Source: Branchiostoma floridae (taxonomy: Eukaryota > Chordata > Leptocardii > Amphioxiformes > Branchiostomatidae). From it: DNA of 64,000 nt. The DNA is taken from positions 13,444,671 through 13,508,670 of the forward strand of contig NC_049988.1 in the NCBI RefSeq assembly GCF_000003815.2. Reading direction: 5' to 3'. The notes beneath the pieces were generated by a model, which was not told the DNA's origin, did not search any database, and worked only from the letters and a program-made list of their open reading frames with translations. Positions 13,059 to 63,776 of this stretch are shown piece by piece. The position numbers and the translations under genes were made by a program. Each line of letters starts with the position of its first letter. Positions within the stretch are counted from its first letter, which is position 1.

Positions 13059-13106
<48 letters not shown>

Positions 13107-19222: not shown

Positions 19223-19283
19223 CAACTTGTACGGGCGACGAGAAACAGTTGGCAGTTGTGAGCAGTGTTGCGTCCTGTCGAAA

Positions 19284-22345: not shown

Positions 22346-22399
<54 letters not shown>

Positions 22400-22858
22400 C
22401 AAGATAACTCAGGAACGGCTGGATGCATTGGTTTTATACTGATGCGTTGGGGTGTACAATTACAAACTTGAAATGATTAGATGCAGTGGCATTTTTGTAA
22501 AAATAGATTCCAAAGAGGAAAGGCGCCCATTTGCGCCATTTTGTGCCTTTTTTAATTTTTCGTCGAAGGATCTGTGATAAGTTTGATACAGATTTTTTTC
22601 TGAAAGGCAAGAAGACAACACTACACAGATGAACAAGTTTTATCGTTTTTCTTGCCCTTCACCAATATCAAGACTTGAAGCATTGGAACGGTAACAAGAT
22701 TTGATACGAGTCATACCTCGAAGTATAATCGTGCCCCTTTCCTGTCCCTCCAGGGCCAGTCTACCGTAGATCTGTGGGACTTCTACCAGATCAACACCAT
22801 TGTTGACGGCCAGATCGTGGATCCGATAGATCCCGTGGATCAAATCCTCATCGGTTGA
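19284..22858 (+). CDS. Array copy 5: secreted His-N-terminal protein, type B
   Basis: Exons are 19284-19429, 20489-20669, 21128-21275, 21753-21884, 22181-22299 and 22754-22858; 276 residues. It shares the type B marks of copy 3: extra Asp codon in exon 3 with an N-D-T sequon, CEHERASMG in exon 4, WIRQIRVSPF in exon 5, no MITE before exon 5, and a TG tract in intron 5. Differences from copy 3 include GHHRGF (a GGATCACAT to GGACATCAT change) in exon 2 and DDDPCCIDS in exon 3. It is the type B member of the second two-gene unit, about 9.34 kb from copy 3. All splice sites are intact. Confidence 0.9.
19594..20190 (+). repeat. Dispersed repeat in intron 1 of copy 5
   Basis: Equivalent of the repeat at 5313-5920, missing part of its front end near 19612. 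Confidence 0.5.
22348..22397. repeat. (TG)25 microsatellite, intron 5 of copy 5
   Basis: Longer allele of the tract in copy 3, at the homologous position. Confidence 0.95.
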
Positions 22859-26600: not shown

Positions 26601-28664
26601 ACCACGTGGCAGATGTGAGATGCAAGAACATCACCAACATCATCGACACAGAGAATCTGATCTTCGCAGTGGACGGAGACGAGGACCCCTGCTGTATCGA
26701 CTCGGACAAACTCATAGTTGTTGAGGACATGGGAATATCGCCATATGGTTTGTATTGAGATACTTCTTTACTTTAGGGTTCGTATCATAATCAACGACGT
26801 TTATGTACTTATTCAAGCCCTACAAATAACCCATGTGTCATCATCTATGCAGCTCATAAAGAATATTATGCAATTTGCATGTTATTCCATTTTTTTTACA
26901 AAACTGGATGCTTTGCTTTTTCGCTACTTATACGGTCCCATATGAAGAAAGAAACCCTACGGGTAAATCTATGGGCTGTTTTTCTGCACCTTCGAACGTG
27001 ACCCCTGCGTGGCCAAGTGGGACACGCTGCGACAACAGGGCTATATTTAGGCACAGCCGGGCCCCTGGATTATTTTAACGTGCATTCAAAATCAACCCGG
27101 AACCCGGCAACAAATTATATACCCCTTGAATGTTGGTATGGTATGGAATGGAATGGAATAGAGTTGTTTTATCTTATTACGTAGAAAAGTGCCAAAGCCT
27201 CAGTAAATTTGAAATATATTTCATATTTTGACATTCAGGGCCTGACATCGACCCTGTGCTGACCACCACCTACCCGAAGCCTGGGTACCAGAACGCACCC
27301 AAGTTCTGTGAGGATGAAGGAAGCGCCATGGCTACCTACAACTTCACCATTCCGCTGGACATGAAACCAGGTCAGGTTTTATATTAACGTTATTTAGTGT
27401 ATTAAGCTTGTGGACCAAATAATTGGACATAACCAACTACATTCTCTCATATTAGCAAATTTTAGCCTCTTACAACATTTTGTTCTGGGGGGGGGGCGCT
27501 GACTCACGATTTTCAACATTGGCGAAGGTTAATTCTTTACAAGTTCGACGCGGAAAGTCCTGTCTTGGCGTTAGAGAACCTTAGGCAATGTTAAAAATCG
27601 CTACCTAGAGTCAGATCAGCTAGAAGTCTTCGTATGAGGCTAAAGGCACAACCCGCCGTACGTGCAATTTGTCCGTACGTTTTTTTTGGGAGGCCACGTC
27701 CACCACATATTTCTGAAAACGTTCAGGCTGTACAGGGCAGGATTCCCTTCGAGTTCGTACGGAGGCGGCACATACGCTTACGGACCCCAAAAGACTGCCC
27801 ACGTTTTGGCACGTAGACAACACGCAGTTGCACGTACGGCGGGTTGTGCCCTTACCTTAAGCAAATACCATCCTCCACAGGCCGCCACACCTTCGTCTGG
27901 AAGTGGATCCGGCATCCCAGGGTCAGTCCCTTCACCACCTGCTGGGAGGCTGACGTGTTCGCCACCAAGGCGGAGAGAGACGCGCACTACACAGCTACGG
28001 TACTTCAGTACCTCCATAAATGATGAATATTCATGAAGGTTATGTTTTCATTAGCGTTTGTGCGTCCGTTTTTCTGTTTGAGTGTGCGCCAGAAAGATAA
28101 CTCAGGAACGGCTGGATGCATTGGTTTCATACTGTTGCGTTGTTAGGGTGTGAAAACTGGAATGATAAGATTATGGGCTCCCCAGTGACCTTTGATACTG
28201 CAGCAGAACTTGATATCTCGTGTTGGCTGTTAGCTCTTGTGGTCAGGAACGAGTAACATAAGAAAAGGCCCATCGCGGCTAGTTTTGGAATCGCAGTGGA
28301 GTTTGTGTAAAAAAAATTCCAGAGTATATGCGCCCATTTGCACCATTTTGTGATTCTTTCTAAATTTCATCGAAGAGTTAGTGATAACTTTGATACTGAT
28401 TTTTTTTTTTAAAGACAAGAAGACAACAGTATACAAGTGAACTTTGATCTTTTTTTCTTGACTTTCACCAATATCCTGGCTTTAAGCATTGGAACGATCA
28501 AAAGATATCATAAAATTCATGGCTCAAATCCTAACCATTACCCTTCCCTGTCCATCCAGGGCCAGTCTACCGTAGATCTGTGGGACTTCTACCAGATCAA
28601 CACCATTGTTGACGGCCAGATCGTGGATCCGATAGATCCCGTGGATCAGATCATCTCGGGCTGA
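23685..28664 (+). CDS. Array copy 6: secreted His-N-terminal protein, intermediate type
   Basis: Exons are 23685-23830, 24122-24302, 26600-26747, 27239-27370, 27881-27999 and 28560-28664; 276 residues. It mixes features. Exon 3 has the type B length but starts NHVADVRC like copies 8 and 9, and its extra codon is ATC, giving an N-I-T sequon. Exon 4 reads GYQNAPKFCEDEGSAMATYN; exon 5 reads WIRHPRVSPF; the last residues are IISG. The MITE before exon 5 is present, as in type A. Intron 1 is only 291 bp because the dispersed repeat was deleted. Intron 2 is the longest of the array because of two insertions, at 24394-24917 and 25228-26456. It sits at the edge of the copies 1-6 subfamily and may resemble its ancestor. 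Confidence 0.9.
24394..24917. mobile_element. Harbinger-like TIR element in intron 2 of copy 6
   Basis: Ends are GGCCACAGCAAGTAA and the complement of GGCCACAACAAGTAA; the similarity runs about 30 bp inward through TATGGATGACATC. It is flanked by TAA at 24391-24393 and 24918-24920. Copies 1, 2 and 4 have the uninterrupted site (TTTGGAAGT(T)AAA...). No open frame suggests a transposase. Confidence 0.8.
25228..26456 (+). mobile_element. CTAG-ended element in intron 2 of copy 6
   Basis: It begins GCCTCCATGAAATG with an inverted CATGGAGG and ends GGTCGCCGAACTCTAG, followed by TT. Copies 2 and 4 show the unfilled site as a T run followed by CAGTATATAC, so both borders are exact. A second copy lies at 41690-42758. 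The CTAG end and lack of long TIRs recall non-autonomous Helitrons, but the 5' end does not start with TC, so the class is open. Short frames inside it are not conserved. Confidence 0.7.
27644..27857. mobile_element. Harbinger-like MITE in intron 4 of copy 6
   Basis: Same insertion as at 3192-3409, flanked by TAA at 27641-27643 and 27858-27860; the outer six bases of the left end are shortened. Confidence 0.7.
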
Positions 28665-29756: not shown

Positions 29757-32700
29757 ATGAAGCTTCTGACTGTGACCCTCGCCGCAGTGCTGCCTGCCCT
29801 GGCCGCCGCCCACTCCTGGATCGTCTGTACGGACTACCTGGAGAACAACGGCTGGTACTGGGACGAGGCCAAGTGTCGGGGGTGGCCACGGTCTGCCGCA
29901 CGGTAAGCTGAATTATTCGTTTGTCATGGACAGCGAAGACAACATTAAATGTTTAGGTCTTCATAAACAACTTGATTAACTTTGTGGTGGGAAATTAGCA
30001 TAATGGTGACCACTTGTTAGGCTAACGTCGCATTTCCAAACCTGGACCCGACCGGGCTGTTTGTGGAAACGGAAAAAAGACATGTATACGTAAAAATACA
30101 CAGATAATGCCGACGACTATTCTCATTACGTCTTATGTAGTTAATGTTTTTTTTCATCATAGTTTTTGTTTCCCAAAGCTGCCAAGCCGGGCCCCGGTAT
30201 GGAAATGTGACGTAGGCCTTTAAACAACATAGAAGAGACCGCGTATAGCAATTGTCCCAAAATTATGATATTTTCAATCGTGCATTGTAGGTACAACCTT
30301 AGATACGGGCGGTTTGGAAGACAGGACGAGTACGCACATCGCTTGGATGACCACCCCGAGTCCAACCCTCTGTGTGAGACGGTTAGAAACGACGCTACAG
30401 AGTACACGGACAGCACTCCCATGGCGGCGTACTACCTGGGGCAGACGGTCGTCTTACCACACCCAACTAACGTGAGAAAACTGTGCAGTCGTGTTTAAGT
30501 CTAATCTCCAAGCAGATCCTACGGTAGCATAAGATAGCATCAAAAGCTGGCAGAGGAGTGAAGCCGGCTTAGGAGTGTGTTTTGCTACCGGGGCAAATGT
30601 ACATCTCTTGACTGACTACACTCCTTGGCCAGTTTGGTACATCTTATGCCATTGTAGAATCTGCTTGAAGATTATTTAAGTCTACGTCACATTTCCAAAC
30701 CAGGACCCGGCCGGGCAACTTTTGGAAAGGGAAGGTGTGATAATAAGACACCAAACTAATAAAGACGTAAAGAGAATAGTTTGTGTATATTTTTTACGTA
30801 TACATTTTCGTCTCCAGAACTAGCCCGGCCGGGCCCCGGTTTGGGAATGAGACTTGGCTACCAGTGATTATTTTGCTGAGGTATAACAACCTCCGAGGAA
30901 ATGACGGTGGTTTTGTAGTCAGTCGGTGTGTCTGTTTGTGTGTGTGTGTGTGTGTGTGTGTAGTGGTGTTGGGACGAACGAACGAACGAACGTAGTGGTG
31001 TTTGTAAACAAGGAGAGAGAAGCGGTGTCACTAGGATACTTTTGATGATTCGGATACTTTTAAATGTATAAAGATGGTTTGGCTAGTCTTTTTGTCTGTA
31101 CTGCATGAAATACAACATTATTAGGGACACGTGGCTGATGCCCGATGCGCGAAGAAGACAGCGAAGGACATTGAGAACCTGATGTTTGTAGTGGACGGAG
31201 ACGAGGACCCCTGCTGTATTGACTCGGATAAACTCATCCAGATCATGGACATGGGGGTGTCGCCATATGGTACGTGACAGTACCTTGTTTCCTTAGGCAC
31301 TACTTAACATTTTAGATCCAAATCATCTTGGTGACCACAGATTAATGATATTTTTTTATGATTTTTTCTTTGCTATACTATGTGTTGCAAAATGGTGTAC
31401 ATTCACATAGATGTTACGTATACATGTATAGAGCATTATTGTGACAATAAGAATATACGTATTGCTAAAACTGTGAAGTCAAAAATCTTTCCCATATCAT
31501 CCCCTTTCCTATCGCACTTGGGCCAGTAGTGGAGTGTGTTCAACTCCTATTATGACCTATACTCTTTCTCTAATGTGCTGAGTGTTAAACAGAGAAAACA
31601 TTCTATCTTTTGGCAAGACCTTCTATAATGCAATTCGAACACTTACAACCAGTCACTACACCAGTCCCGATATGACATTTGTTCACCAGAAACATAAACT
31701 GGAAAAAAACTGTTCCCCTATAATTAGGTGAAAACATCGCGGACGAGCTGACCACCACATACCCGAAGCCTGGCTTCCAGAACGCCCCTAAGTTCTGTGA
31801 GGACCAAGGAAACGCCATGGCTACCTACAACTTTACTGTCCCCATGGACCTGGCTCCAGGTTAGGACAAGATCCATTCCTCTAGATGTGTGATAGTGCAC
31901 TTTAACATGTATCACGATTATCTACATGTACTACAACAATGTTTTGATAAGCTACAATGAAACGCCATGGCTACCTACAACTTCACCGTTCCCGTGGACC
32001 TGACTCCAGGTTAGGACATTTCTCTAGATGTGACAGGGCACTTAAATATGCATCAAGAAGATTTAAGAGTATGTACTTATGCAATGCTTAGTGTAACTGC
32101 TCGGTAAGTAGCTTTATCATCTTCTTGTATTGGTTGCAAACTACTGTATGTGATTATGACCTACATGAATATTGTGTGTATTAGACAATCTCACCAAGAT
32201 AATATTAGTAAAACTTCAAGAGACAAATTGTTCTTCACACATAGATATGTGACAGAAATAGCATACCCTCTATTCACTGCATTTATCACTCAGGTCGTCA
32301 CACTTTTGTCTGGAAGTGGATTCGAACCCGTACCGTTAACCCCTTCACTAGTTGCTGGGAGGCCGATGTGTTCAGCACTAAAGCACAGAGGGACGCGCAC
32401 TACCTGGCCACGGTACAAAACCCACTTTCTAAAAACAGCCAAATTAGACCACAGCACATTGAACAGTCTTCTTCAACCCTCTTTAATTCTTCAGTAAACC
32501 ATCTGTCACCTTCAAAATGTTAACTGAGGAATTCAAGAAGGTTGTGCTACGAAGAAACTTTGTTCAATTGATCTACCAACCTGGTGATACTATTTACCCC
32601 TAGACCACAGTACGTTCACTGCAAATAATAAAAAAACTGTTAGTTCTGTTGCATTACCAAGAAAAACCAGCAGGTGGTCCATTATCAACTATGACCTTTT

Positions 32701-33107
32701 GCCTTCCCAATATCTACCTACTAAATATCATTATGATCTGCCAAAAGCTGCTTACGGTATCGCTGGCCAAAATACACAGAAGCACAGACAAAACAACAGT
32801 TCTACAAGGTTCTGAAGTATTCTCCAAGCAGAAGAGCAAGTCGTTAACAATCCCAACTACTACTATATCTCCGACTCTGCTTGGATTACAGTTCTGAAGC
32901 TGTATACAAGTACATTTTGCAAAGCGTAGTTTGTTTAAACTTTATTTATTCATGAGCTCTTAAATCTATGCTCAAATTGGATGTATCTTTCTGCTTGTTC
33001 TACAGGGCCGCCCCACTGATGACATGTGGGATTTCTACCAGATCAATAACATTGTTGACGGAGAGATCGTGGATCCTCATGATCACGGGGAGATCATCAC
33101 AGGCTGA
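29757..33107 (+). CDS. Array copy 7: divergent secreted His-N-terminal protein
   Basis: Exons are 29757-29902, 30291-30471, 31125-31269, 31728-31859, 32294-32412 and 33006-33107; 274 residues. The signal peptide differs (MKLLTVTLAAVLPALAAA) but still ends before HSW. From 29789 to 29864 exon 1 is identical to copy 2, while bases before and after differ, which suggests gene conversion. Exon 2 begins YNLRYGRFG; exon 3 has GHVADARC and DGDEDPCCIDSDKLIQIMDM as in copies 8 and 9; exon 5 has WIRTRTVNPFTSCWEADV; the C-terminus is HDHGEIITG. All putative copper ligands and cysteines are kept. Upstream modules of the other copies are missing. The gene converges on the FET gene, whose 3' end begins about 480 bp downstream. 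Confidence 0.88.
30021..30218. mobile_element. MITE with GC-rich inverted ends, intron 1 of copy 7
   Basis: The left end ACGTCGCATTTCCAAACC pairs with a right end GGTATGGAAATGTGACGT; the arms continue through GGGCCCGG-like sequence. A relative lies at 30680-30858. No coding potential. Confidence 0.65.
30680..30858. mobile_element. Second MITE of the same family, intron 2 of copy 7
   Basis: The left arm ACGTCACATTTCCAAACCAG and right arm CCGGTTTGGGAATGAGACTT match the element at 30021-30218. The two insertions flank exon 2 of copy 7. Confidence 0.65.
30937..30961. repeat. TG microsatellite with adjacent (CGAA)n
   Basis: TG dinucleotides in intron 2 of copy 7, followed at 30974-30992 by four to five ACGA units. 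Confidence 0.85.
31959..32015 (+). pseudogene. Partial duplicate of exon 4 in intron 4 of copy 7
   Basis: AACGCCATGGCTACCTACAA and the following bases repeat the end of exon 4 (31809-31859), including its GTTAGGA donor. The product would read NAMATYNFTVPVDLTPG. No acceptor AG with a pyrimidine tract precedes it, and the first half of the exon is missing, so it is probably a relic. Confidence 0.7.
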
Positions 33108-33964: not shown

Positions 33965-36900
33965 CTAATACGGGCGGTCCCTACGGTCTGATCTCATGTC
34001 ATCCCTGGAAGATATAACAAGGAAGAATGAATAACACAATTTCATAGCAAATGGAAGAACAAGTAAATCCAATTATAACTTATGTACAGAACAAAAATAT
34101 GGTAAGCAAACTTTTGCCTACTAACACCTTTTTTTACATTTGTTTGCTTACAACCATGGCCATCTTAATACATCAGGGCTCGAAATACTTTTTTCTGCAT
34201 ACCTGCACTGGTGCAGGTAACATTGAAAATTACCTGCACCAGACAAATTCTACCTGCACCACTCTAAATTTAGGAAGTATGAATCATACTAAAATTGTCC
34301 AGAAGCCATTGCTATTTTTTCTTTTGTACTTTATAGGTGGTAACAGCCAATGCAGCTAAGAACAATCAACATGCACCTACTAGTACATCATAGGACAGTT
34401 ATGTAAAGTTCTCTGTATAAAACCCAGTATATGGACCAGTGCAGGTTAGGTGCAGGCAGACACCAGAAATACCTGCACAGCTCCAATTTTAACTGCACTA
34501 ACCTGCATATGCAGGTGGTATTTCGAGCCCTGTACATTGAAAGCTATCGAACCTGTTGCAAGAAACTTATCTGTGGCAATCAATGGAATAAAAATCAATT
34601 AAAAAAAACTGAGGGTAACATAAAAATCATGAAACTAGGAAATGTGCCTACAGACTTTATGACAATATACAGTATTGGAATCATAACCAAGTTGATGTCA
34701 CAACAGATCTGTATCTGTATCTGTATTTACATAGCCAGTATAACCACCCTACGGCGTAACACACCAGCTTCGACATAACATTAACACATGACAGTCCTTA
34801 CCTCTTCCCCCTGCCTCTGAATCCCCCGCGGTCGCCCCCACGGCCGCCACGGAAGCCTCCGCGATCACCCCCGCGCCCACGGAACCCGCCACGATGGCCG
34901 CCAAAACCACCGCCGCCATGGCCTCCGTCATCTGGCACAGAAAAAACAAAATTTAAGCATGTCTGTCCTAAATACGAAGAAAATGATAAATGAATATCAC
35001 TTCTCCTTATGGTGTTTCAGTATACTTCAAACACTTATTTCCATTCTTACAGAAACGTATACATTCAAATACAGATGCATTCATCAAGTCACATAACACT
35101 GTCTGATACTGAAAGAAACCATACAAACTATTGTACTGTCAGTGCTCACATTGGCCAGGTGGTCCTGATGTCAAGGTGGTCACCTGTACAGGTTTGACTG
35201 CATCTTCAAAATGACAGTTCTTACAGTTTTACTGGTAGATATCACAAACATATTTTATGATATTCGGTTAACATACCTCCACCTGGCTTGGGTGCCTGGC
35301 ATCGGTTGCAGGAAGTTCTCCAGGAGAAGTTGGTGTTACCACATTCCCTACAGAGGAACAGACAAATAACAGTTACACACTCGTACATGTACAGGAATCA
35401 CTGTATATCCTAAAAGGTTGTTAAAAACAAAAGGAACGCAAGAAGTTGTCAGTTAACCAGAAAGTGATCTCGAAACAGTATAGTACACCAAAGCTTCTCT
35501 TCCACGAGAAAAAAAAAGATGCTATATGAAGTACCTGTGTGATTTCTCTTTCAACAAGCACAACGACTTATGGCTCTGCATCCTGTCCTAAGGACTGCAA
35601 CCCTTTCCAGTAATGTGTATGTCAGGTAGGCAAAGAGAGCCGGGATTCAAACTCATAACTTTTGGTCCAGAAGCAGGATCACTAAACTACGGACTATACA
35701 GACTACAACAGTTGTTTGCTAGTAGCCAAGAATATTGTCTTACGGGTTGGGACAGCTCCAGTCTCCCTCTCGCTGTTCCATGGACCGGCCACCATCACGT
35801 CCGCCTCCACGGCCTGAAATAAACAAACAAAAACCATCAACTTTTTTCTCATTCGAGATTCTCCCATAATGTTCAAGACTATCAAGTTACAGTAATGCAT
35901 TTAAAGTAATCCTTGCAGTAGGTACGTAATCAAATAATCATTTCAGAAATACTGCCATTTCTATTATTTCAGCAGACTGTTCTGTACGGTTTAATACAGT
36001 ACTTCATTTGGTTAAATTGCTATGGAACTCGACTTACCTCCACCACCACCGAAGTCTCTTGGTCCTGTAATTAAACACACAAAAGAGAAGTATCAATTCA
36101 ATGTAAGGGGTACAGGTATTCCTATTTCCTTTTTTTACTACTACTTTATTACATTTAAGAGTCATTGCACGAGAAAACCAGGCAAAACCAGGCAGAGGCC
36201 GGAAGATGGGGGTCGGCCAAATCCACTCAAACTTTTTATGTGTGATAGGTATGTGGAACTATGAACAGCCATATAGTTAAAACTCTCCAGCTATTTTTCG
36301 TTATGGCGTTCTGGGACCCCCCTCAGGGACCCTCTAAAATCCAACAATTTATGCCTGAAAATTACTGAAATTTCGATGGCTATTCTGAAAAATCTGATTA
36401 AGGTACGAACAAAAGTTTTGCAGTTCCATATAGCCTGGGTTCTTAAGTGTTACAGACCAAAAGTTGAAGATGATGTATTAAAGTTAAGAGGGTGTGTTAG
36501 GGGGTTACCTGAACCACTGAAAGCAGAATTTTTGTCACTGTAAATTTTAGTCATTTTTAAGGCGCAATAAAATCTATACCCAGTGGGTCTGGTGAATGGT
36601 TTTAATGTTGATAGAGAGAGGAACATCTACTTATTCAAAAACAATCGTCGTCTAATTGGGCCATACATAACGCGAGCCGTGAGAGGGGGGTCTTCATGGG
36701 GATTTTTCGGGTTTCGGTCTTTAGTAAATCGGGTGATTATATTACTCTATGGGGGGTAAGTCATGGCAAATGTTTGCAAAGTTGTTTGTGAACCATGCAT
36801 AATTGTCAAAATATCATGTTTGATTGGCAATATTAATTTGGGCTCCATATGGGGGATTTGGGGATACTATAAAAGCAATTTTGCTGATTTTATACATTTT

Positions 36901-39900
36901 ACTGTTGCTTTCTAATGTTTTGAAACTGGTATCTGTTCCTAAATTACTTTGTACCTACCAGATATGTCGTGCATAATAAGAAGGCTCTACATGGGGGTTA
37001 CCAGGACTCCACAAATGTGATACCATTGAATAGAAAGGGCACATGGATGCGGCTCTACTTCATACATATTGAGAATCATAGAACAAGACCACAACAAAGG
37101 TCAAGATTAACGCTTTTGGGGATGGATACGTGTACATTATACTTTTTTCATCAATACGGGTGCACTATAGGTACTGCTATAGACATGCTGATTAGGGAAC
37201 TGATGCGAGTCGGTTAATAAAAAAATGGCCGAAAAAATTTGCATCCATTATGGTGAGGTGGTGTGGTCAGGAAAGCTGAACAAATGACAAAACACACAGA
37301 GTATGATATACCAAACAGATTCTTGATTTTCATTCTTTCACATCTTCTCGTTTGACCTTGGAATTGAAGTTGGCATTCTAAGTAATTAGTACGCATTTAC
37401 GTTTGCCGATGTGTTTGCAATCTACGGCATATAGTGCTCATTTTGTAGCTGCTATGAATTACAGTATGGTTTAAATCTAAACGTTTTTTTCTGACAATGA
37501 AAAAAACTTGTAATCGATGTGCACACCACAAGCCAAAAACAAAGTCTTTGACGAATCCTTTACATAGAACTACATTAGATTTAAAAAATCTGATGAAACA
37601 TTTAGCTGTAATTGCTAACAGACTCTGGTCGGACCTAACACTAGACATATTGCAATTGGGTACAAAATCTCTTGAAAGCCTTTCTTTTTACATTTTTGGT
37701 AAAAAAACTATGAAAAAGCAATTTGCACATGTATGTGCATGTGCCTAGGATAGTTTCCAATAACTGTATGAAAGGAAGTGTTATGTAGCCTATAACGGGC
37801 AGATGAAAATGGTCTGATACAAGTTTTAGTTACTTTAGCTTTAATGATTCAAGGCCGTTGGTTATTGCCAGTTCACTCAAGTTTACATCTTTGAACATGA
37901 AAAGATGAATGTAGTCAATGCTAGTATATAGTGTGTTTGCCGTGTCTGCCACTCGCCTTCCTCTTCTATCCGTCTAAATTTAGTGTATTGACTCCATGTT
38001 AGTGGCCACAGATTCTGTGCTTTCATGCTGTCTCTGTGTTACTGAAAGGCTTGTACAATATTGTAATCTGCTTGGCCGTAATTTTTGTAATTTGTTACTT
38101 TAATTTATTATTTTGTAGCGTAATTTTGACAAAAGTGCTATATCACCACTTAAACAAAAGTAAACTGTCCTTTGCGTTTGAATTTGCGTCTCGACAGTTT
38201 ACTTGATACTAAAGGGGCTCTATATGTAAAGGGTTTGTGATAGATTTTGTTTTTGGTTTGTCCTTATGGTAATGAATGAATAGCAATTGATGTACAGCAC
38301 TTTGTGACCTAAACTGTGGGCTATGGTATATCGTAATTGATAAAAAAGTACAATGTACATGTAGTCATCATTTAAATAGCCTTATTGAATATTGACATGA
38401 TAAAGGCAACTTTTTTTCCAGCCATTTCTATATTCGTATACTCACATCAGTTCCAGAAATCAGCATGACCTTATAGTGGTGAATGAATAGTCATTAGGCA
38501 TATTAACAAACCATTGATGTAATGTTGTTTGTCTATAGCAGTACCTATAATGCACTCATATTGATGAAAAAAAGTATAATGTACACGTATCCATCCCCAA
38601 AAGCGTTAATCTTGACCTTTGTTGTGGTCTTGTTCTATGATTCTCAATATGTACATGTATGAAGTAGAGCCGCATCCATGTGCCCTTTCTATTCAATGGT
38701 ATCACATTTGTGGAGTCCTGGTAACCCCCATGTAGAGCCTTCTTATTATGCACGACATATCTGGTAGGTACAAAGTAATTTAGGAACAGATACCAGTTTC
38801 AAAACATTAGAAAGCAACAGTAAAATGTATAAAATCAGCAAAATTGCTTTTATAGTATCCCCAAATCCCCCATATGGAGCCCAAATTAATATTGCCAATC
38901 AAACATGATATTTTGACAATTATGCATGGTTCACAAACAACTTTGCAAACATTTGCCATGACTTACCCCCCATAGAGTAATATAATCACCCGATTTACTA
39001 AAGACCGAAACCCGAAAAATCCCCATGAAGACCCCCCTCTCACGGCTCGCGTTATGTATGGCCCAATTAGACGACGATTGTTTTTGAATAAGTAGATGTT
39101 CCTCTCTCTATCAACATTAAAACCATTCACCAGACCCACTGGGTATAGATTTTATTGCGCCTTAAAAATGACTAAAATTTACAGTGACAAAAATTCTGCT
39201 TTCAGTGGTTCAGGTAACCCCCTAACACACCCTCTTAACTTTAATACATCATCTTCAACTTTTGGTCTGTAACACTTAAGAACCCAGGCTATATGGAACT
39301 GCAAAACTTTTGTTCGTACCTTAATCAGATTTTTCAGAATAGCCATCGAAATTTCAGTAATTTTCAGGCATAAATTGTTGGATTTTAGAGGGTCCCTGAG
39401 GGGGGTCCCAGAACGCCATAACGAAAAATAGCTGGAGAGTTTTAACTATATGGCTGTTCATAGTTCCACATACCTATCACACATAAAAAGTTTGAGTGGA
39501 TTTGGCCGACCCCCATCTTCCGGCCTCTGCCTGGTTTTCTCGTGCAATGACTCTTAAGGCTTTTATAACACTATAAATGCACTGTTTGCATAGATTAGCT
39601 TCGCTGTAGATGAAGATTGGATTTGCGGTGTTTTTGAGTTCACAGTAGTCACTAGTCACAAACAGAATCAGAATTACTGATTTTGGAAACAGTCAGACGT
39701 TTCAGATAGCTCCGACTATCTTTCAACAGTGACACTTCCTATTGGTGACCTGTAACAGATTTTTGAAGATGCAGGTTTTAATGAAATTAACAACAATTAC
39801 CTCCGAAGCCACGTCCACCGCCGCCGCCGCGACCCCCTCCCCGTCCGAATGGCCCTGATCTGGGGCGCATCTGTGCCAGCTCCACCTTGATCTTGTTGCC

Positions 39901-42900
39901 AAGGAACTCTTTATCTGTAAGGACAATACGCAAGGATGAGACACACATGAGAACATGTATTAAAATGCCTGGAATAAGATTACCGGCTTGACAGCACAGG
40001 ACATAGTGATGTGCAAGATTTTAATTTCATCATGACTTGCTGTAAGTTCATTTAGTTTTGAGGGGACTGATAAAATGTAACATTACAGTCACAGGAAAAA
40101 TCAGTCTCTCATGGTGCTAATTGTTCACACAATTCTGTACCACACTAGCGAAGCAAGAGAAATGCACATTTGCATCATAATACATGTAAATTCAAGGAGG
40201 GGAGGTCACCACAAAGTTTATCTCAAAACCACTGTAAGCACATCAACATTTTGGGTAAATCCGTACCGTTGAACCAGTCGATGGCAGCCCGTGCTGAGTG
40301 TGCGTCGTCATAGGTAACTGTGGCCTCGCCCTTTGGTGACCCCGTCATCTTGTCCTTGTAGATCCAGATCTTGGGCTTGTGGGTCTTCTTGTCCATCTGG
40401 AGGATATCAAAAGGAATTTAAGTCAAGTCATGAAATAGTTGCAATTGTTTAAAGGCAAAACTCAAGTGTACATTATAATATGCATTACATGTATTTGTCA
40501 GGGGGTTCTCTATACGATGAGCAAATGTATGCAAGCTAAATTGACAATGTGACTTGATGTAATGCAGAGAAACCCTGCAGTAGACTGAATAGGAAAATAT
40601 CAACTTTCTCTTACAAGCTTTTAGACAAACTGATTAAACATCGCTTATAGCAGTCTGCCCAACATCCATCCAGCGGAAAGGGACCAGTTACAGCCTTGGA
40701 CAGTAAAGTTTGTGTTACACAGACTTCTTTTAGACAGTCACACAAGATAGACAAAATGTAGCATTGAGATGCAGCTACCTTGATGATGCCGATGGACCCA
40801 AAGTGGCTGGTGAGATGGCCTGCCAGTTCCTCCTCCCTCATGCTGGTGGGGAGATTCTGCACAAAGATGGTGTCCTGCTGCACCTGCATGTCTCCGTCTG
40901 TTGCGGGAACATCATTAACCTTTAGCACACTGACGCCAGCATCTGGCTCTACTTTACTCTCTACTGTACATGGGGTTTAAGAGACAAGGAGAAGGTTCAC
41001 CATGTTAGCACCTGGGATCAAAAGTCCAGTTATTATAGACAGATCCCATAGCCCCACACTCCTCCATCACCATGTGCAGGGCTCGAAATACCCCCTACAT
41101 ATGCAAGAGTTATAGTTCNNNNNNNNNNNNNNNNNNNNNNNNNNNNNNNNNNNNNNNNNNNNNNNNNNNNNNNNNNNNNNNNNNNNNNNNNNNNNNNNNN
41201 NNNNNNNNNNNNNNNNNNGTACACATTGTTATGGTGAAAGGAAGAGAATTTGCATACCGTTGCTTCGGCCACCATCAGAGCTACCCCCTCCTGTGAAGAG
41301 TGAACAAAACAGTAAGATATCTACTCACTAGTTAATGTTAATCTGCAATACATAGTCATAGCACATCAATTCAACATAGAACAACAGAGAACAAGTATAT
41401 TGAATGTAAAGATGAGTTTGTACTACACGGCACATGCTGGTTGACATTGACCGTCTACATGATCTAGAAACCTGAACTCTGAACTTGAAGATAACATTCA
41501 ATGATTGGTAACAAAAACTATTGCCATATACCCTTCATTATCATTATATCAGTAAATGTTTCAAATGTGTCTGAAGATAGCAAAAAACACATCAACCTAC
41601 TGGAAATCGATCATCTATGTGTTCAGTCAATAGTCACTTGAACACATTGCATAACAGCTATACCCATGGCCATATTATTACCTCCATGAAATGTCATGGA
41701 GGTTATATTTTACCCTGCGTTTGTGTGTCTGTCTGTGTGTTTGTGTGTGTGTGTGTGTGTAAACAAGATAACTCAAGAATGGCTGGGTGGATTGGTTTCA
41801 TACTTGGTGTGTTGGTAGTGTGTGATGAAAGCTGGAAATGATTAGATTTTGTGCCCCCTAGCAGCTCCCCTTGGTACTGCAGCGCAACTTCCGGTTTTGC
41901 TATCTTGGTGTTCTGAACATGCTATGGTCACGATTTTTGAGTGTTAGATAGCTCTTGCGCTCAGGAAGAAATGACATAAGTTTGGGCCCCCTAGCGTCTA
42001 GTTTTGGGATAGCAGGGGCGTTTTTGTCAAATACTTCTGAAGAGGATAACTCAAGAAGGGAACAACGGATTTTCATGATTTTCGGTATGTAGGTACCTTA
42101 GACAATGTTGTACATGATAAGATACTAATTATACAAAATAGGAGTACATTTGCATAATTAATGAGAATATTCTAACATAGCAGTTTTTTCAATGTATCTC
42201 TTGTTCCGGACATGCTATGGTCTTGACATTTAGGTGGTAGATAGCTTTTAGTGCCATACAAAAGTGGGACAAGTTTCAGCCCCCTAACATCTAATTGTGG
42301 AACTGCAGAGGAGTTTTTGTCAAGACACTCCAAAGAGGATAACTGCAGAAAGGAACGACGGATTGCCTGCATTTTAGGCATGCAGGTAGCTTGGGCAAAG
42401 ATGTTCATAATAATATGCATGTTATGCAAATGAGAACTTAATTTGCATAATTAATGAGGAAATTGTATAGTTCCATTGTTTTCAATAACTGGACCTCAAT
42501 ACATGTAACACATGTTAGTTAAGATAGGTGAAATATAAGCAGATACCAAATATGGTAATGAGGAACTTATTTGCATAATTCATGTAAAAATTGCAAAACC
42601 ACTTTATGATTAATGATGGGAATTTTATAATTGTGACACGTGTACGTTAGTCAATGATGACCAACACCATGCATGAATTATGTTAATGTGTTAGTCAATT
42701 GCATGAAATTTTCGAAAGCTCTAAATTTTCATGGAGGTATGAGGTCGCCGAACTCTAGTTAGTAATACTATTTTGCAACAACACTGTAAGGATGGGTATG
42801 TAGTGATTATGTAGATGGGACAGAACCAAAAATAAAATTGTATACACTTGTTGACTATCTACAACACCCTTTCATATGCTCAACAATTCCCCCAGTACCA

Positions 42901-51900: not shown

Positions 51901-54900
51901 GGTATAAAAAAAGTAGACAGAAAAATGTTGAAAACACTGGTAAAAGCATCCTCACTTAACTTTTATCATCTTCATCATGTTAGAAAAAAATAACACCAAA
52001 TTAAAACTATTTAAAAAGAAGACAACAAAAAACCTGACAGGTGCATTTACTAACAGGTGAATAATGAGATATCTGAAGCATTTCACTCATAAAAATTCCA
52101 ATAAGACCCACCCCCTCAAAAAGGTTTTCTATAAATGGTCCATCTTGAAGTTGATACAAGCAAGCAGGTTAAAAACAACCTCCTTATGAGACACCATTAT
52201 TTTGGGATATCTTACCCCTGGAAAAATGGTATGTTCCAACCTCATTTACATATTCAAAATGGCCGCTGTCGCGCGTCGTCAGAAATATATGTATGCTGTT
52301 TTCCATAGCAATTTTCTGCATTTTTGGTGGTTTTGAGACCTAAAAACCAAGACCAGAAGTGAAATAAAGGCACATATGACATTTTTATGGGTAATAATGC
52401 CACAATGACCCAGTCATGTTTCTGCTGTGTTGCGAAATTTCAACAGAGAAATTCCCATCTTGCACCATGTGCCTCGAACAGGGTACGTCATTTGGTAAGA
52501 TAAAAATTACTTTGCTCCTATAGCTAAACTTATTTTATGTCCTGTTAGTTGTGATTTATGATGTTAACAGAAGCAGATAGTGTTGTTTTGACTTTTTCTA
52601 CTTCATTAGGAATTTGCAGAACATGTTAAAAAACCGATTCTACAATGATGCACCAGTCAAATGTTCAAATCGAAAAATTTATGTCCTCTACTAGCCGCTG
52701 ACCCCAAAAAAAAGTCTAGGGTCGGCAGCTTTTTCTAGGGTCGGTCGGGTTACAGGAAACACAACATTTTTTTCCTAGGCCTTAGTAAGTTATCCCTATC
52801 ACATTGACTTTCTTTTAACTAAATCTTGTTCATGGTAGCTAATATGAAGCTCATATCTAGAGCAAACATGGATCGATATTGGGTCCATAAACTTAGCTCC
52901 ATATTCATGGATATAATTCCAAGTTTGTTTTTTTCTCCTTTATCTGACAATTCAAATCGATTACAGGGACATAAATATGATACCCATATAATTGGAATCA
53001 TTGTGCACATAGATAGAAACAGAAATTCATTACACAAACTAACTCAAACAATTCTCAAGACAGAATCAGATGGTTCAAGACAGATGGGAATGTTTCTATC
53101 AAAAATCCAGAAAAGCTGTCTCTCTCCATCCCTACCTGACTGTTGTGAGTAGGGAGCAGTCTGTGCTGCTGGCTGTTGCGAGGCGTAGGATGTCTGACTC
53201 TGCTGTCCATAGCTGGAGTAGCTGTCGGTTCCAGTGGAGCCTCCATAGGAGCCGTATCCTCCACCAGCGGCCGGCTGCTGTGGCTGCTGCTGCTGGCCGT
53301 ACGCCTGAAGTATACAATATCAGTTTTAAACTTTAACCCTGTGATATGCAATAACTCTGAGACATGCAATAAAGACCCATCGCAGGATTGCAGGGCCAAT
53401 CTTTAATAGCGATCTACAAATCAGGAGAGCTTGATTCTGTAAAGTGAACAAAATATACACAATAAAGAATCTTTTTATACATCACTGTATACCTTCTACA
53501 TTTTTGGTGGGTGGCTGTGGTATACAGGCACAAGTGTTGGTCTAGCCTGGGTGCCTTTCAATGTTCTACTACAGGCAGCTAGCATGATTTGCTTCAGCTC
53601 AATGGTTTGGACTGCCCAATCTGTGATATAGGCCCTTAAAATCTCTTTCATGCATTGAAGTGTTCTTGTTTTACCACAAGTAGAACCCTGTCACCTTTAA
53701 CAAATATTTGACTTTTTTAAAGCAGAAAAATGAAGAAAAGATTAGTTACCTGCTGTCCACTCTGTGCAGTTTGTCCATAGCCTGCTGAGCCTCCATAGCT
53801 GTAACTAAAGGGGGACAAAAACTAGTTAAAAATAGACCGTTCAGAGAATTCAGTACTGTACATAATTCACTTTGTCTTCACGGTACCAAACTTTCACGGT
53901 GTGAGAAAATTTAACTTGTTCTCGGAACTGAATATTCACTGTTGCGGCAGGTGCGCATAAAAAAGGCTGTGAATTATTTGTTATCAGTAATGATAAGTTC
54001 ACGTTACAGTCGTCACCGTGAAAACCGTGAACATAACAGTACATTGAAAAAATCAGGAATTAAGGTATTTTACATGTTCCTAGCAAGATAGAATATTATC
54101 TTGTTAAAACATGGGTAAGACCATTATGAATTTGAGGTGTAGCCGCAAATTTGACAAAAAAATACTTACTTTGGATGGGAGCCCGAGCCTCCACCATAAC
54201 TACCATAACCTGGAAAAGAAAGTCTTTTAGCACCTTCGTAACATAGTTAGAAAATCTAAGTAACAACACCAGCACCATATTTTTTTTAATATCTATGCAT
54301 GGTAAAAATACCCCCCCCCCCCGCTTGGTTTAGCCCGTTCTGCTAATTACTTGCTACCCACGCTGTACAAAATTCGCGAGTAGAAACCTGATATTTTAAC
54401 CTAAAAAGAAGAAGATCCAAGCTACAACAGGTATTCACGGGTATATTGTGTTGTTAGGCTTGTAGAATCACCCAAATTGTACCTCGATTTACTCCCAATT
54501 TTGCACTGCGGCTGTGGATAAAGAAGACAAAAGGCCACGGCCAAACACCATGCCGCCATCTTGTACTTGTAGCTCACATTTTCGCACATTTTACTGTCAA
54601 TGTGGGGAAAGAATTACGAATTTTCCTCCGAGCTTTCCTAAACATATTGTTCTAGGAACATGCAACGAGCAATCTGGGCTCTTTCCACGGTCGGAAAATG
54701 TCAATTCTTAGTCAACGTTTGCTCCAAAATAATTTGCAACGCGGCACACATGCAAGTGGCGTGGGTAGCCGGGTGTGGCTTGGCTATGTCCTTTCCACGC
54801 CGGTTTTGCGAACTAACCGCTCTTAAAACAAACAGAAATAGCCACTACACTGTCCATAGTAATTCCTGACATTTTTGGGTGACCAAAACTACGTCTGATT

Positions 54901-56916: not shown

Positions 56917-56978
56917 TAATCTTGTAAGGACGACGAGTGATAGCTGGCAGTTGTGAGCAGTGTTGCGTCCTGTCGAAA

Positions 56979-59587
56979 ATGAAGCTCTTCGTCGCGCTCT
57001 TGGCTGTCGGGCTGCCTGCCCTGGCCGCCGCCCACTCCTGGATCGTCTGTACGGACTACCTGGAGAACAACGGCTGGTACTGGGATGCGGCAAAGTGTCG
57101 GGCCTGGCCGAGAAATGCAGAGCAGTAATTATAGATTCTTCTCTTTATTTTCTCTAATTCGTAAGGGTTAGTTAAGTTACTTAAACAGCCCACACAGTAC
57201 ATTTTTTTCTGTAAGTTGAATGCTGAAAGCTGAATGAAACATAGCCTGGATACCAGACCCCAGTCCGATCTCAAAAAATATCTACCGTGGAGACGCAATA
57301 GATATTTTTTTTAGATCGGGCTGGGGTCAGCTATCCAGGCTAAATGAAACAGAGATATAACGGAGAGGAAACACAAGATTTACTAGCTATTACGTTGAAT
57401 GCATTGTTTATTAAGTTAATCGTTCAAGACTTTATCATATGGTGAAGAAATATGAAAATAGATCTGTCGATCATTTCACAGACATTTTTGTTCCTTATAA
57501 GATAGAGCTGAGTGCATGATACACTTTGGTATATTTGTCATATTGTCTTTTTTACAAGATATATAGCTGTGATAGCACACACAAAATTGTACACATAATA
57601 TCTACAACACCTCTGGTTTCAGGTACAACCTTCGTGACAGAGTGTTCGGGGAAGCAGGCGGGACAGCAGGCTTTGTCCACCGACTTGACAATCATCCCGA
57701 GCTTACTCCACTGTGTAACGATCCAAGAGATGACGCCAACAGTTACCAGTTACCCATGGCGGCCTACTACCTGGGACAGAAGGTGGTTCTCACTCACCCA
57801 TTAAACGTAAGTCATTCACCAAGTACATGTATCTATCCTCAACTTTTGGCTTGTACGATATTTGTTGTATCTGATTGAAAATTCTGTTGAAAAACAAAAA
57901 AAACATTGTGCATTTGATTTATGTATCATCAATTTCGATGGAAGACTCAAAGACCGAGCTTTTCTACCATTTATGTGTGCTTTTTGTGCTTTGTGCTTGG
58001 TACGTGTATCTAAACTGTATGAAAAAAAATGAGACATTAAACATTTTTTTGCTGATTACATTTCCCAGCCTTGTGTCCTGAATACTCGTGTTTGCATTTT
58101 ATTTTCAACTTATAAAGACTACGAAGCCACCTGTGGATAGTGAACCAATATAGGCGCAAAATAGTGAGTGACATTATTTCTACATAGAACCACGCCAGTG
58201 ACCCAAACTGTGACATCAGTAACAAGAGAGGCCGCGCGGACACCGAGAACCTGATGTTTGTTGTGGACGGAGACGAGGACCCCTGCTGTATCGACTCGGA
58301 CAAACTCATCCAAATCATGGACATGGGGGTGTCGCCTTACAATCATGGTTGGTGTCATTCTTTGACTACATACTGTTAGGTAGCTTGACGCGGGTGAAGA
58401 CTATTGGAAAAGTGTGGTGATAACTTTACATAATCATTTATCTTCATGGACAAATGTGTGTCGCGCACATGCCATCATTTTTTTGCTACTTCAATAATTT
58501 TTGGACATTTTTTTACGAATCGACAGGTGATGTACAGTTCAGCGATGAAGTCCTCTCGACATACCCGAAGGTCGGTTTCCAGAACGCGCCCAAGTTCTGT
58601 GAGGATCCGGCAGACGCCATGGGGACCTACAACTTCACTATTCCTATGGACATGAAGCCAGGTAAGACAACTATTATACATAATAGTAGATATGACAAAA
58701 CAGACGTTGATATTTCCCTGAAGAATTTATAGGGAAATGATAGCACAGACGCGTCTTGTTATTGCATTTTCAAAGACGCCATATGTCAAACAAGAGTGTA
58801 ACCTACGTGTGTCCTATACTATTGTACATTTAACACATTAGTCTGATTAGACGTTCTTAAGATTTCCGTGAAAAAAGAACAGTAGTAAAATGATAAAACA
58901 GTCACAATGCATGAAACAAAGACTTATGAACGGGAAAGCGGGGCCACAAAATGTCTCAAAAAGTCGTTTTTCACTGCAATTAGTCAGGAAATACTACCAA
59001 TTATTGGATGGTCTCCATTTGAGATCTTTTTTAATCAGGTCGTCACACCTTCGTCTGGAAGTGGATTCGTGTCCCCTCAGTCAACCCCTTCACCACCTGC
59101 TGGGAGGCTGACGTGTTCGCTACGAAGGCCGAGAGGGACGCACACTACCTGGCCACGGTAATTCCTAATATGACCATCGTTTGTATGGACGTCATCTAGC
59201 TTTATTGGTGTATCTTACAAAATGCCCGGTAAAGAAATTGAGATAGATACATGTATTTGTTTTTTAACACACAGTCACAAGTGTATGTAGACATGTGTAA
59301 TGAATACATTATGCAGTATGAGAATTCCAAAACAAGGACACGTGTCTTTATCAAGTTTAGTTGACACATGATCCACTGAGCGTCATTTTTCCTTCCTTCT
59401 CATTCTTAAAATGACACAACATCTATTTGACAGTTTCAAAATTGTAGCATTGTAACGTACATTTCATTGACGTATTTTGCAGGGCCGGACCACGGAGGAC
59501 ATGTGGGACTTCTATGAAATCAACACCATCGTGGACGGGGTGATCGTGGATCCCGTGGATCCTGTGGACCCGGTCATCACTGGCTGA
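56979..59587 (+). CDS. Array copy 8: divergent secreted His-N-terminal protein
   Basis: Exons are 56979-57124, 57623-57806, 58188-58347, 58527-58661, 59039-59157 and 59483-59587; 282 residues. The signal peptide and HSWIVCTDY start are the same as in copy 2, and exon 1 is identical to it for the first 107 bases. Exon 1 ends ...GAGCA before GTAATT, a weaker donor than the AG/GTAAG of sister copies; reading through gives a stop at once. Exon 2 begins YNLRDRVFG and ends THPLN. Exon 3 starts NHASDPNC, is five codons longer than type A and ends PYNHG. Exon 5 has WIRVPSVNPFTTCWEADV, with the N-P-F spacing closest to known LPMOs. It is head-to-head with the FET gene, about 2 kb apart. Confidence 0.88.
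57243..57341. mobile_element. 99-bp foldback MITE in intron 1 of copy 8
   Basis: AGCCTGGATACCAGACCCCA pairs with TGGGGTCAGCTATCCAGGCT across nearly its whole length, through AAAAATATCTA / TAGATATTTTT. TA flanks both sides. Confidence 0.75.
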
Positions 59588-59611
59588 GTGAAAGCCAAAG
59601 TATTGTCGAGA

Positions 59612-59617
59612 AATAAA
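59612..59617 (+). terminator. Poly(A) signal of copy 8
   Basis: AATAAA 24 bp after the stop codon. Confidence 0.7.
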
Positions 59618-60066
59618 GGTTTCGTACAGCCGTATCAAACTCTGTGTTGTCATCACTTAAATATTGAGGAGGTACTAAAATCTTAAAGCGTGATCCATAT
59701 GAGAAGCTTACCATGTCATGTTTGAAAGTTTAGATGTAGAACCACTCTTGGCTGAATCTCAGTCTGTGGTAAAATAAATTATTCTCTCCGTATCTGAATG
59801 GTGCTAGAATGCTGACTTAATGTACTATGCGTATATACGTGTGTATATGTGCTCTGATATTGCAGCGACGACTCAAATCCCTTGGAATAAAGAACAATAG
59901 AAAGACGGACAGACGGAGCATGAACAGTGTTCAGCCTTTCCAACCGACCTTAGCCGACCTTTGACTTGATAGTAGGACTTGGGAGGGAAGGAGTGGGCAC
60001 CACCCCCTCCACCGGTTGTTGATTTTATCATAGTGTTAACACAACACCTGGAGCTCAACGTCCTAA

Positions 60067-60428
60067 TACCCCCCTCACATTAGGCGCGATTCGATCGGAC
60101 GACGAGTCTGCGAGCTCTAATTTACAAGGAGGCATGACCCTGATGCCGACAAAAAAAATGGCAGAGCTCCCCCTTCCCGTNNNNNNNNNNNNNNNNNNNN
60201 NNNNNNNNNNNNNNNNNNNNNNNNNNNNNNNNNNNNNNNNNNNNNNNNNNNNNNNNNNNNNNNNNNNNNNNNNNNNNNNNNNNNNNNNNNNNNNNNNNNN
60301 NNNNNNNNNNNNNNNNNNNNNNNNNNNNNNNNNNNNNNNNNNNNNNNNNNNNNNNNNNNNNNNNNNNNNNNNNNNNNGAGCTCGCAGACTCGTCGTCCGA
60401 CCGAATCGCGCCTAATGTGAGGGCGGTA
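60067..60428. mobile_element. TIR element whose interior is an N gap
   Basis: The left end TACCCCCCTCACATTAGGCG and the right end complementary to it run inward for about 50 bp through CGACGAGTCTGCGAGCTC. The relic at 56378 preserves the empty site (CGTCCTTAAGGG). The ends are related to those of the element at 1255-1491. The interior is unsequenced. Confidence 0.75.
60181..60377. other. Assembly gap (197 N)
   Basis: Run of N within the element at 60067-60428; the left arm continues about 60 bp to the gap and the right arm starts exactly at its edge, so long inverted repeats may have blocked assembly. Confidence 1.
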
Positions 60429-60818
60429 TTAAGGACTCTCTTAATCCCCCAGTACTAGTAACACATTCAATGGGCTATTAATACTCAAATAGTGTCCTGT
60501 TGCAGTATTATACCAAGTTTGATCGTTTTTCCAGAATGATGTTACAAATACTAGTGTTTAGTTGTTTCTTCGTCTTCGCCACAAAAAGAGCATTTCGAAT
60601 TATCTTTAATGTTACAAAGGTGCAACAAACCTTGATGTTATGTAATTTCTATCTTTGTCAACAAGTGCTGCCTGTTATGTGTGATAAAACACACAACCAG
60701 GTGGGAGATCTTCCTGCTGTTCCCATCCTGTCATGATAAAGGTACATATAGAGCAACACTTTGCACAGACGACTAGAGACCCGTTGGCAGTTGTGAGCAG
60801 TGTTGCGTCCTGTCGAAA

Positions 60819-63776
60819 ATGAAGCTCTTCGTCGCGCTCTTGGCTGTCGGGCTGCCTGTCCTGGCCGCCGCCCACTCCTGGATCGTCTGTACGGACTACC
60901 TGGAGAACAACGGCTGGTACTGGGATGCGGCTAAGTGTCGGGCCTGGCCGAGAAATGCACAGAGGTGAGTAAAGATTTTCGGGACGATTCTAAGTTCTCT
61001 AATTCGAGAAGTTTTCTAACAGCTCACACTGCGTTTGTAATTCCTTTTGTACCTTTCCTGCTGATTAAAAACAAGTGCTTTCAAAAAGGCTGACATTTTG
61101 CCAATGTTTGCGTGTGTGAACGTTTTTTTCTAGTTATTAGAATGTCATATAAATAGAACAGAGTAACTAAACCTGATATTGGCGCATGGAGAGATTCACA
61201 TATGTGCCTGAACTGCAGCAGATCTAGACGCCACCTGTTAAAATTTGCGTGAACTGCAGCAAATTTCACTACACATTGCCTGTTTTTGAGTGAGCTCTGT
61301 TGCGGGGCATTTTTAATTTTTTTTTTTTTTTTTATTTCTATTCGGCAAAAAAAAACGAAGCGGCGAATCCGTTAACCAAAGAAATAAATTGGTGTGGCCA
61401 AATGGATGTAAAAATTAGTATTTTAATGGTTGTAAAAAAGAAAAAAAAAGTTGAAAAAATCTACCTCCCCGGATTCGAACCGGGTGCATTGGTTCAGAAT
61501 GCGTAAACTTTACCACTGCGCTAGTGCGAACATGTTTAAGAAATGTCCGTTTTAACAGGTATACAAATGTTTGGCATGGATTGAACAGGTCCGTTCATCT
61601 CAACATCACAACGGCGACTACACTGGCCAGAAGGCATTTTGCGACTGCAAGTCGCAAAATGCAAAAACATACGAAAACGAACGCAAAGGTTGCAAGTTAT
61701 CGGTAAATACATAATCGGTAATCTATCGAAAATGAGTATATGTGGTTAATTTTGTCATCATTTAACAGACGTATTTCTCCTGGTATAAAGTTGACTAAAG
61801 CACATATATACTTTGGTATATTTGCAATGTTGTCACTATCTTTTATATAAGACAGACAGCTCAGCACAAGAAACTGTATAGATAGTGTCTACTTGTAACG
61901 TGTGTGGTTCCAGGTACAACCTTCGTGACAGAGTGTTCGGGACTTCTGGTGGTTATGTGCACCGTCTTGACGACCATCCCGAGCTTACTCCCCTGTGTAA
62001 CGACCCGAGAGATGATGCCAACGGTTACCAGCTACCCATGGCTGCCTACTACCTGGGACAGAAGGTGGTCATCAACCATCCAACAAACGTAAGTCACATG
62101 AGCTAGTATCTACACTTAGCTTTTGGCCTGTACGTAAAAATGTAGTCTCCAAGTAAAGGTTTCGGACGGGTGCTGGTAGTGGTCGCGCTTTCGGGACACA
62201 GGCGTTAAAAATCGCGACCATTGCGGCTAGCCCCCGACTGAAAACTATACTGTATCAACTGTATCAGTGCGCATTTTTGGGATTATGAATTATTCATTTG
62301 GATGGAATGGCCAAAAGTCCGAACCTTTTTACCATTTACATATGCTTTATTAGCTTGGTAAATGTATCTAAAACTTTATCAAAAGATAGACGTGTTACCT
62401 TTTTTGTTAATTACATTTCTGATCAACAGCAATGTTCCGTGAATACTAATACTTGCGTCAATGTTCTGTTTTCAATTCAACACTACGAAGCCAGCTGCTG
62501 TTTTTGCACCAATATAGTACTTCTCTAAGCAAAGGTTAGGTCAGGGAAAAGAAGTGGCCGGGATTTCTTACTGCTCCCTCCCCTCAACATTGAGCGGTAA
62601 GAAATCCCAATATACTTGTACCATCCCCAAGACCTCTGCATGGAGAATACCACATAATACATCGTTTTTCCACAGAACCACGTCAGTGACGCACAGTGTA
62701 ACATGAGAGGCCGTGCGGACACCGAGAACCTGATGTTTGTGGTGGACGGAGACGAGGACCCCTGCTGTATCGACTCGGACAAACTCATCCAAATCATGGA
62801 CATGGGGGTGTCGCCTTACAACCATGGTTGGTGTCATTCTTTATACATAGACTGTTTTGTATCTTTATGCCACTGTAGACTAGTCTGATTAGATATCGCT
62901 TATAGCAGCCCGTCCAACATCCGCCGGCCTCTGCGGGGAGGTGCCAGTTACAGCCCTGGAAAGCAGACTTTGTGTCACACAGACCGAGCTGTAGTTGACT
63001 TAGGAAACGTGTGCCACCAAGTTTAAATCGTCACTTGTTTTGTGGGACAAACATGTATAATTGCCTCCATTGAAAAGGTATTCAATGATTTGTTTTACAT
63101 ATTTTATGATTCGACAGGTGATGTACACTTTAGCGATGAGTTCCTCTCGACCTATCCGAAGCCTGGTTTCCAAAATGCGCCCAAGTACTGTGAGGATCCC
63201 GAAGACGCCATGGGAACCTACAACTTCACTATTCCTATGGACATGAAACCAGGTAAGACAACTATGATACAAAATGGTAGATATGACACAACGGACGTAC
63301 TGCACATCTCTGCGCATATTGAACATTATGAAAATCCGTTGTTTCTTTGTTCCGTCATTCTCCTTTGAAGATTTTGACAAAAGGGCCCCTTCCATTCCAA
63401 TGCAAGTTGCTAGTGGGCCCAAACATACACCACTTCTTCCTTGCATCACTACTATATATCAATTTTTCATGGAGATAACAAATACTTTCCGGACGCCAAC
63501 ACAGGGCCATTGAAAATTTTGCGGACTCGATCTTGTTTTCGCTATGTAACGTTAATAGTGTAGAAATTCCTTCAGAATCAGAGGTATCAAACACTGAAAT
63601 CAGTCATTGATTAACTAGTTATTAGGCGGTCTGAAGCAGCTGTTGTTTTTTTATCAGGTCGTCACACCTTCGTCTGGAAGTGGATCCGTGTCCCCGAAGT
63701 CAACCCCTTCACCACCTGCTGGGAGGCTGACGTGTTTGCTACGAAGGCCGAGAGGGACCACCACTACCTGCATACG
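60819..63776 (+). CDS. Array copy 9: divergent secreted His-N-terminal protein (exon 6 outside window)
   Basis: Exons are 60819-60964, 61914-62088, 62676-62826, 63118-63252 and 63658-63776; exon 6 lies beyond the window end. The signal peptide has one change (LPV for LPA) and ends before HSW. Exon 2 begins YNLRDRVFGTSGG, is two codons shorter than type A and ends VVINHPTN. Exon 3 starts NHVSDAQC and ends PYNHG. Exon 4 has FQNAPKYCEDPEDAMG with Tyr for Phe. Exon 5 has WIRVPEVNPFTTCWEADV and ends RDHHYLHT, with two extra histidines not seen in other copies. It is the closest relative of copy 8. All visible splice sites are intact. Confidence 0.88.
61634..61662. repeat. Perfect 13-bp hairpin in intron 1 of copy 9
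   Basis: GCATTTTGCGACT, a GCA loop, then AGTCGCAAAATGC. The region just before it (61441-61540) has a tRNA-like box B, GGTTCGAATCC, on the minus strand. Confidence 0.8.
62560..62608. repeat. 12-bp inverted repeat in intron 2 of copy 9
   Basis: GGGATTTCTTAC at 62560-62571 pairs exactly with GTAAGAAATCCC at 62597-62608, with a 25-bp spacer. Confidence 0.8.

Follow-up and report, generated by a model that had tools for sequence, protein, structure and literature searches.

A tandem array of nine genes in the 64-kb stretch of DNA analysed here (the window) probably encodes secreted histidine-brace copper proteins of the lytic polysaccharide monooxygenase (LPMO) superfamily. According to this reading, which we hold with moderate confidence from sequence comparisons, the proteins would belong to DUF7492, lie outside CAZy families AA9–AA17 and perhaps act as oxidative polysaccharide enzymes. 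Its foundations are directly established: the gene models, purifying selection, a partial match to DUF7492, a match to the last strand of AA11 LPMOs, and an alignment register that places an array Phe on the AA11 Tyr. The link to LPMOs drawn by an earlier, sequence-only reading of this DNA stands in part. A segment of exons 4–5 matches the AA11 axial strand beyond shuffles, and four copies match DUF7492 in their N-terminal half; the likeness to AA10 that had been proposed is not supported against the AA10 enzyme CBP21.

A selected, expanded gene family

A tblastn search of the window with the exons of copy 8 recovered nine tandem gene copies on the plus strand, each with up to six exons. Copies 1–7 lie at 662–33107 and copies 8 and 9 at 56979–63776. 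Copies 2–8 are complete genes of six exons (copy 2, 5002–9121; copy 3, 9940–13566; copy 4, 14376–18468; copy 5, 19284–22858; copy 6, 23685–28664; copy 7, 29757–33107). Copy 1 (exons 2–6, 662–4212, from tblastn and splice sites) is without exon 1 and copy 9 (exons 1–5, 60819–63776) is without exon 6, both of which presumably lie beyond the window ends. Exon boundaries were placed by hand at splice sites close to the tblastn ends; all 44 acceptors are AG, all 44 donors are GT, and the spliced frames contain no internal stops.

Copy 8 illustrates the gene structure, running from an ATG at 56979 to a stop at 59585–59587 and encoding 282 amino acids. Exon 1 (56979–57124) encodes a putative 18-residue signal peptide, MKLFVALLAVGLPALAAA, followed by His1 of the predicted mature protein (HSWIVCTDY...). 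Exon 2 (57623–57806) includes PMAAYYLGQKVVLTHP, and exon 3 (58188–58347) carries His94, the candidate second brace His, as its second codon. The NFT sequon in exon 4 (58527–58661) is invariant in all nine copies. Exon 5 (59039–59157) encodes GRHTFVWKWIRVPSVNPFTTCWEADV, the AA11-like strand in which Phe208 aligns with the AA11 axial Tyr, and exon 6 with the stop (59483–59587) adds a short VDPVDPVDP tail. The exon 1 donor of copy 8 (57119–57130) reads GTAATT, as against GTAAGA, GTAAGC or GTGAGT in copies 2–7 and 9. Splicing may be weaker at this donor, and reading beyond it leads to an immediate stop.

The array is a real, selected and expanded gene family of a eukaryote, as its spliced genes show, and probably of an animal. 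Purifying selection is seen in dN/dS values of 0.10–0.49 for all 36 copy pairs, which are not independent of one another. Copies 1–6 form a young group (dS 0.04–0.17), copies 8 and 9 form a pair (dS 0.26), and the three sub-groups (copies 1–6, copy 7, and copies 8 and 9) are separated by dS of 0.68–1.22. Because many copies are young duplicates, with a mean column identity of 83%, invariance among copies is weak evidence on its own.

With that limit, most of the conserved features described in the sequence-only reading are present. The putative signal peptide directly adjoins His, reading ...LAAA and then His in all eight copies with exon 1. Cleavage right before His1 is predicted from the A-x-A rule, which upstream Ala sites in ...ALAAAH satisfy as well. 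Exon 3 has His as its second codon in nine of nine copies, and the eight reported invariant cysteines recur in all eight copies with exon 1, copy 1 retaining the six of exons 2–5. The exon 5 motif G-R-H...W-x-W is likewise found in every copy, with a spacing of H-x3-W and not the x4 first given. It continues as (N/S)-P-F-T-(T/S)-C-W-E-A-D-V throughout, as described, with N in copies 7–9 and S in copies 1–6. All three sub-groups retain both His1 and the exon 3 His. Trp and Tyr are frequent in the N-terminal loop (W3, Y9, W15, Y16 and W17).

Two further observations concern how the copies are arranged. A 7.2-kb block of two genes is duplicated at 5568–12753 and 14914–22077 with 95.7% identity. 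In addition, the 25 nt upstream of the ATG (for example 56954–56978) are identical in copies 2–6, 8 and 9, copy 7 being without the element. The preceding 25 nt, compared ungapped with copy 8, are 80–84% identical in copies 2–6 and 40% identical in copy 9. Gene conversion could explain the identical element, as could constraint on the 5′ leader.

Matches to DUF7492 and to the last strand of AA11

DUF7492 (PF24320) is a Pfam family without an assigned function and with a gathering cut-off of 27 bits. We scanned the eight precursors of copies 2–9, leaving out copy 1, which is without exon 1. Four passed the cut-off: copies 2 (28.9 bits), 3 (28.4), 5 (28.6) and 7 (27.7). Copy 4 fell below it at 23.2 bits, and the precursors of copies 6, 8 and 9 returned no PF24320 match or, for copies 6 and 9, any other Pfam match. 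By the Pfam threshold, then, membership of the array in DUF7492 is indicated by four of eight copies. The alignment begins at precursor residue 17, two before His1, and runs past the exon 3 His to residues 117–122. It spans part of the domain and not the whole, matching 101 to 106 of 265 profile positions, all within positions 2–107. Among the mature proteins, six of nine matched DUF7492 (best E 1.7e-5), the three matches detailed being under the cut-off; three reversed and two shuffled control sequences gave no DUF7492 match.

We take DUF7492 to be a fungal family whose members begin HSW and end EYYTTC. One fungal sequence, presumably a member, scored 346 bits against PF24320 (E 1.2e-103). 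Profile comparison of the nine-copy family with this single sequence gave a probability of just 11%, in an alignment that pairs NGHV with NNHA/NGHV and TTC with TTC. This fungal sequence alone found no match in the PDB and nothing at E≤0.1 among plasmid sequences, and a literature word search for DUF7492 found no mention of it.

A second line of evidence comes from the PDB, in which 177635 sequences were searched at E≤10. With copy 9 as query, phmmer returned three matches (best E 0.0077), all of them AA11: 9exj, 4mah and 7p3u. The nine-copy profile retrieved the same three chains and no others in hmmsearch (best E 0.007). The best single stretches reached E 0.017 and 0.012, respectively. These individual E-values are modest, yet the three matches are exactly the AA11 family; passages of PMC12186267 refer to three AA11 structures in all. 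Profile–profile alignment with hhalign was stronger: the nine-copy profile matched the three AA11 sequences with E 2.2e-6 over 25 columns ending before the Phe. None of 120 column shuffles reached its score (45.2 versus a maximum of 24.5), and the reversed profile scored 19.0. When the presumed fungal DUF7492 sequence was added, the alignment grew to 46 columns, Phe included, with E 6e-7 and again no shuffle of 120 reaching the score; this longer alignment depends on that one added sequence. The corresponding PDB search placed 7p3u at E 0.0003 overall (best stretch 0.011), 9exj at 0.015 and 4mah at 0.056, followed by three unrelated chains at E 0.26–1.4.

The HMMER alignments set Phe208 on Tyr141, Asn/Ser206 on Glu139 and W-x-W on Trp129/Trp131 of AfAA11B, in which Tyr141 is the axial and Glu139 a second-sphere residue (passages of PMC12186267). 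In their last strand, the array proteins and AoAA11 (4mah), AfAA11A (7p3u) and AfAA11B (9exj) carry T/K-I-P, G, W-x-W and (F/Y)-x-x-C in register with one another. The array differs in carrying Phe with Asn or Ser where AA11 has an axial Tyr with Glu, and no significant similarity to AA11 was found in its N-terminal half. An N/Q/E-x-F/Y motif has been reported for LPMOs (PMC6950343, in part); N-P-F of copies 7–9 fits it, and copies 1–6 carry S-P-F.

The profile–profile search envisaged in the sequence-only reading supports kinship at the last strand and not around the second His. In the exon 2–3 region, nine local alignments with AA11 were non-significant (P 0.06–0.99). Full-length hhalign likewise gave no significant alignment of the first or the second His with AA11, and a composite query made up of the 123 N-terminal residues found no match in the PDB. 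A G-Q followed by Cys 17 residues on occurs in 4mah, 7p3u and copies 2–9, with the second His offset by one residue (+12 in 4mah and 7p3u versus +11 in the array copies).

Searches for other families returned little. The AA9 and AA10/AA15 Pfam models (PF03443 and PF03067, the latter of which we take to cover AA15 too) were absent from the matches of nine members at E≤10, although HMMER filters discard most matches above E ~0.1. This agrees with the earlier placement of the array outside the nameable families. No Egh16-like Pfam match and no NCBIfam family appeared among the nine members, and PHROGs gave two weak families, each in two of nine members (E 0.047 and 0.11). A relation to AA10 was rejected: CBP21, one AA10 enzyme, reached hhalign probabilities of 3.8% and 0.4%, and the AA10 Pfam model was unmatched. 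The AA10-like strand that had been claimed is nearer to AA11. The viral and genome contig collections yielded no tblastn-confirmed relatives, and a plasmid search yielded two matches, both at E 3. A degenerate DNA pattern for H-x-W-x-x-C-x-D-Y occurs at 51 loci (43 genome, 8 viral), and by eye no translation among them resembles a signal peptide plus relative.

A putative copper enzyme and its alternatives

The mechanism that we infer extends from the cleavage site and fold to the copper brace, catalysis and substrate. Removal of the signal peptide would expose His1 as the mature N-terminus. A single copper ion would then be coordinated by the amino group and ring of His1 and by His94 (in the mature numbering of copy 8), on a flat surface rich in aromatic residues; Phe208 would be axial by analogy with AA11. 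Once reduced, the copper would react with O2 or H2O2 and oxidise a C-H bond at the glycosidic linkage of a polysaccharide outside the cell, perhaps dietary chitin or cellulose. The Trp- and Tyr-rich N-terminal loop would suit the binding of a flat polysaccharide.

Several known systems offer partial parallels. A review of histidine-brace proteins names AA15 as the LPMO class whose range includes animals (PMC10952591, in part). Like the array, AA15 shows expansion in an animal, with >20 isoforms in Thermobia, and an axial Phe or Tyr (passages of PMC5823890 and PMC10952591), whereas the array proteins match no LPMO Pfam model. X325/Bim1 and Egh16-like/TrsA likewise carry a His at the start of the mature protein or close to it and stand outside the classical families, with an LPMO-like fold solved for X325 and modelled for TrsA (PMC7924993 and PMC12377627, in part). 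A literature search for lytic polysaccharide monooxygenase together with Branchiostoma returned a tunicate genome paper and a starch-binding study; passages of the former describe an LPMO orthologue group common to tunicates (PMC8704543).

An alternative that we consider rather unlikely is a protein that uses the histidine brace to bind or deliver copper without cutting polysaccharide, like X325/Bim1 or CopC. Such proteins share the brace, and X325 is described as having an LPMO-like fold and no detected activity (passages of PMC7924993 and PMC10952591). Moreover, Ser replaces the second-sphere N/Q/E in copies 1–6, at the position where the E139N variant of AfAA11B has an initial rate of 0.019 versus 0.088 per s for the wild type, about a fifth (PMC12186267, in part). 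Since this variant, the equivalent of the Asn of copies 7–9, retains about one-fifth of the rate, Asn alone would not rule out catalysis; Ser is not among the Glu139 variants in passages of PMC12186267. The axial site points the other way, as the fourth ligand of X325 is Asp (PMC10952591, in part) and all nine array copies have Phe at the AA11-aligned position. Having an aromatic residue where X325 has Asp would favour an enzyme over a copper carrier, if not decisively. The neighbourhood was uninformative on this question, a Pfam scan having covered six of the 113 ORFs kept from 33.1–56.9 kb.

Less probable again is a secreted beta-sandwich or lectin-like protein that holds no copper, in which His1 and the GxH..WxW strand would reflect LPMO-like ancestry or convergence. 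The non-significant likeness of the second-His region to AA11 speaks for it, as does the limited weight of invariant His residues among so many young duplicates. It sits poorly with a DUF7492 match that starts just before His1 and spans the exon 3 His, and with the retention of both residues across three sub-groups at the dS given above. That the array simply comprises divergent AA11 enzymes is very improbable, even with AA11 chains as the sole PDB matches at E≤10. AA11 membership was rejected, as the match is confined to the last strand and the axial Tyr with Glu is replaced by Phe with Asn or Ser; the AA11 N-terminal stretches SPL..DGS.FPCK and GSA.HGGGSCQ are also absent from the window proteins.

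The reading of the array as LPMO-superfamily copper proteins can be extended, more tentatively. DUF7492 might be an unrecognised LPMO family common to fungi and an animal lineage, and the array sub-groups (Asn-x-Phe versus Ser-x-Phe) might be functionally split copper enzymes outside AA15. If true, and if the array is indeed from an animal, it would represent a second animal LPMO branch and a candidate AA family, and DUF7492 would gain a testable function. The N-P-F and S-P-F copies would form a natural series of second-sphere variants beside a conserved brace. Such enzymes would also suggest that their host digests food oxidatively or remodels matrix.

Other elements in the window

The window holds no Rfam and no tRNA matches. 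On the minus strand, 40614–40976 and 53047–53319 are possible exons of a protein with an RRM and a SYGQ-rich region, FET-like by eye only. A minus-strand exon matched RRM_1 at E 0.006, under the Pfam cut-off, and a PDB search with the RRM-like exon gave ten matches at E≤1, led by other RRM proteins (E 0.029) and including no FET protein. An inverted repeat at 36184–37185 and 38530–39538, with arms of ~1.0 kb at 99.0% identity, is either a foldback element of recent origin or an artefact of the assembly. Finally, a direct repeat of ~0.7 kb with 86% identity occurs at 25751–26469, in intron 2 of copy 6, and at 42046–42769, between copies 7 and 8; it is perhaps a transposon.
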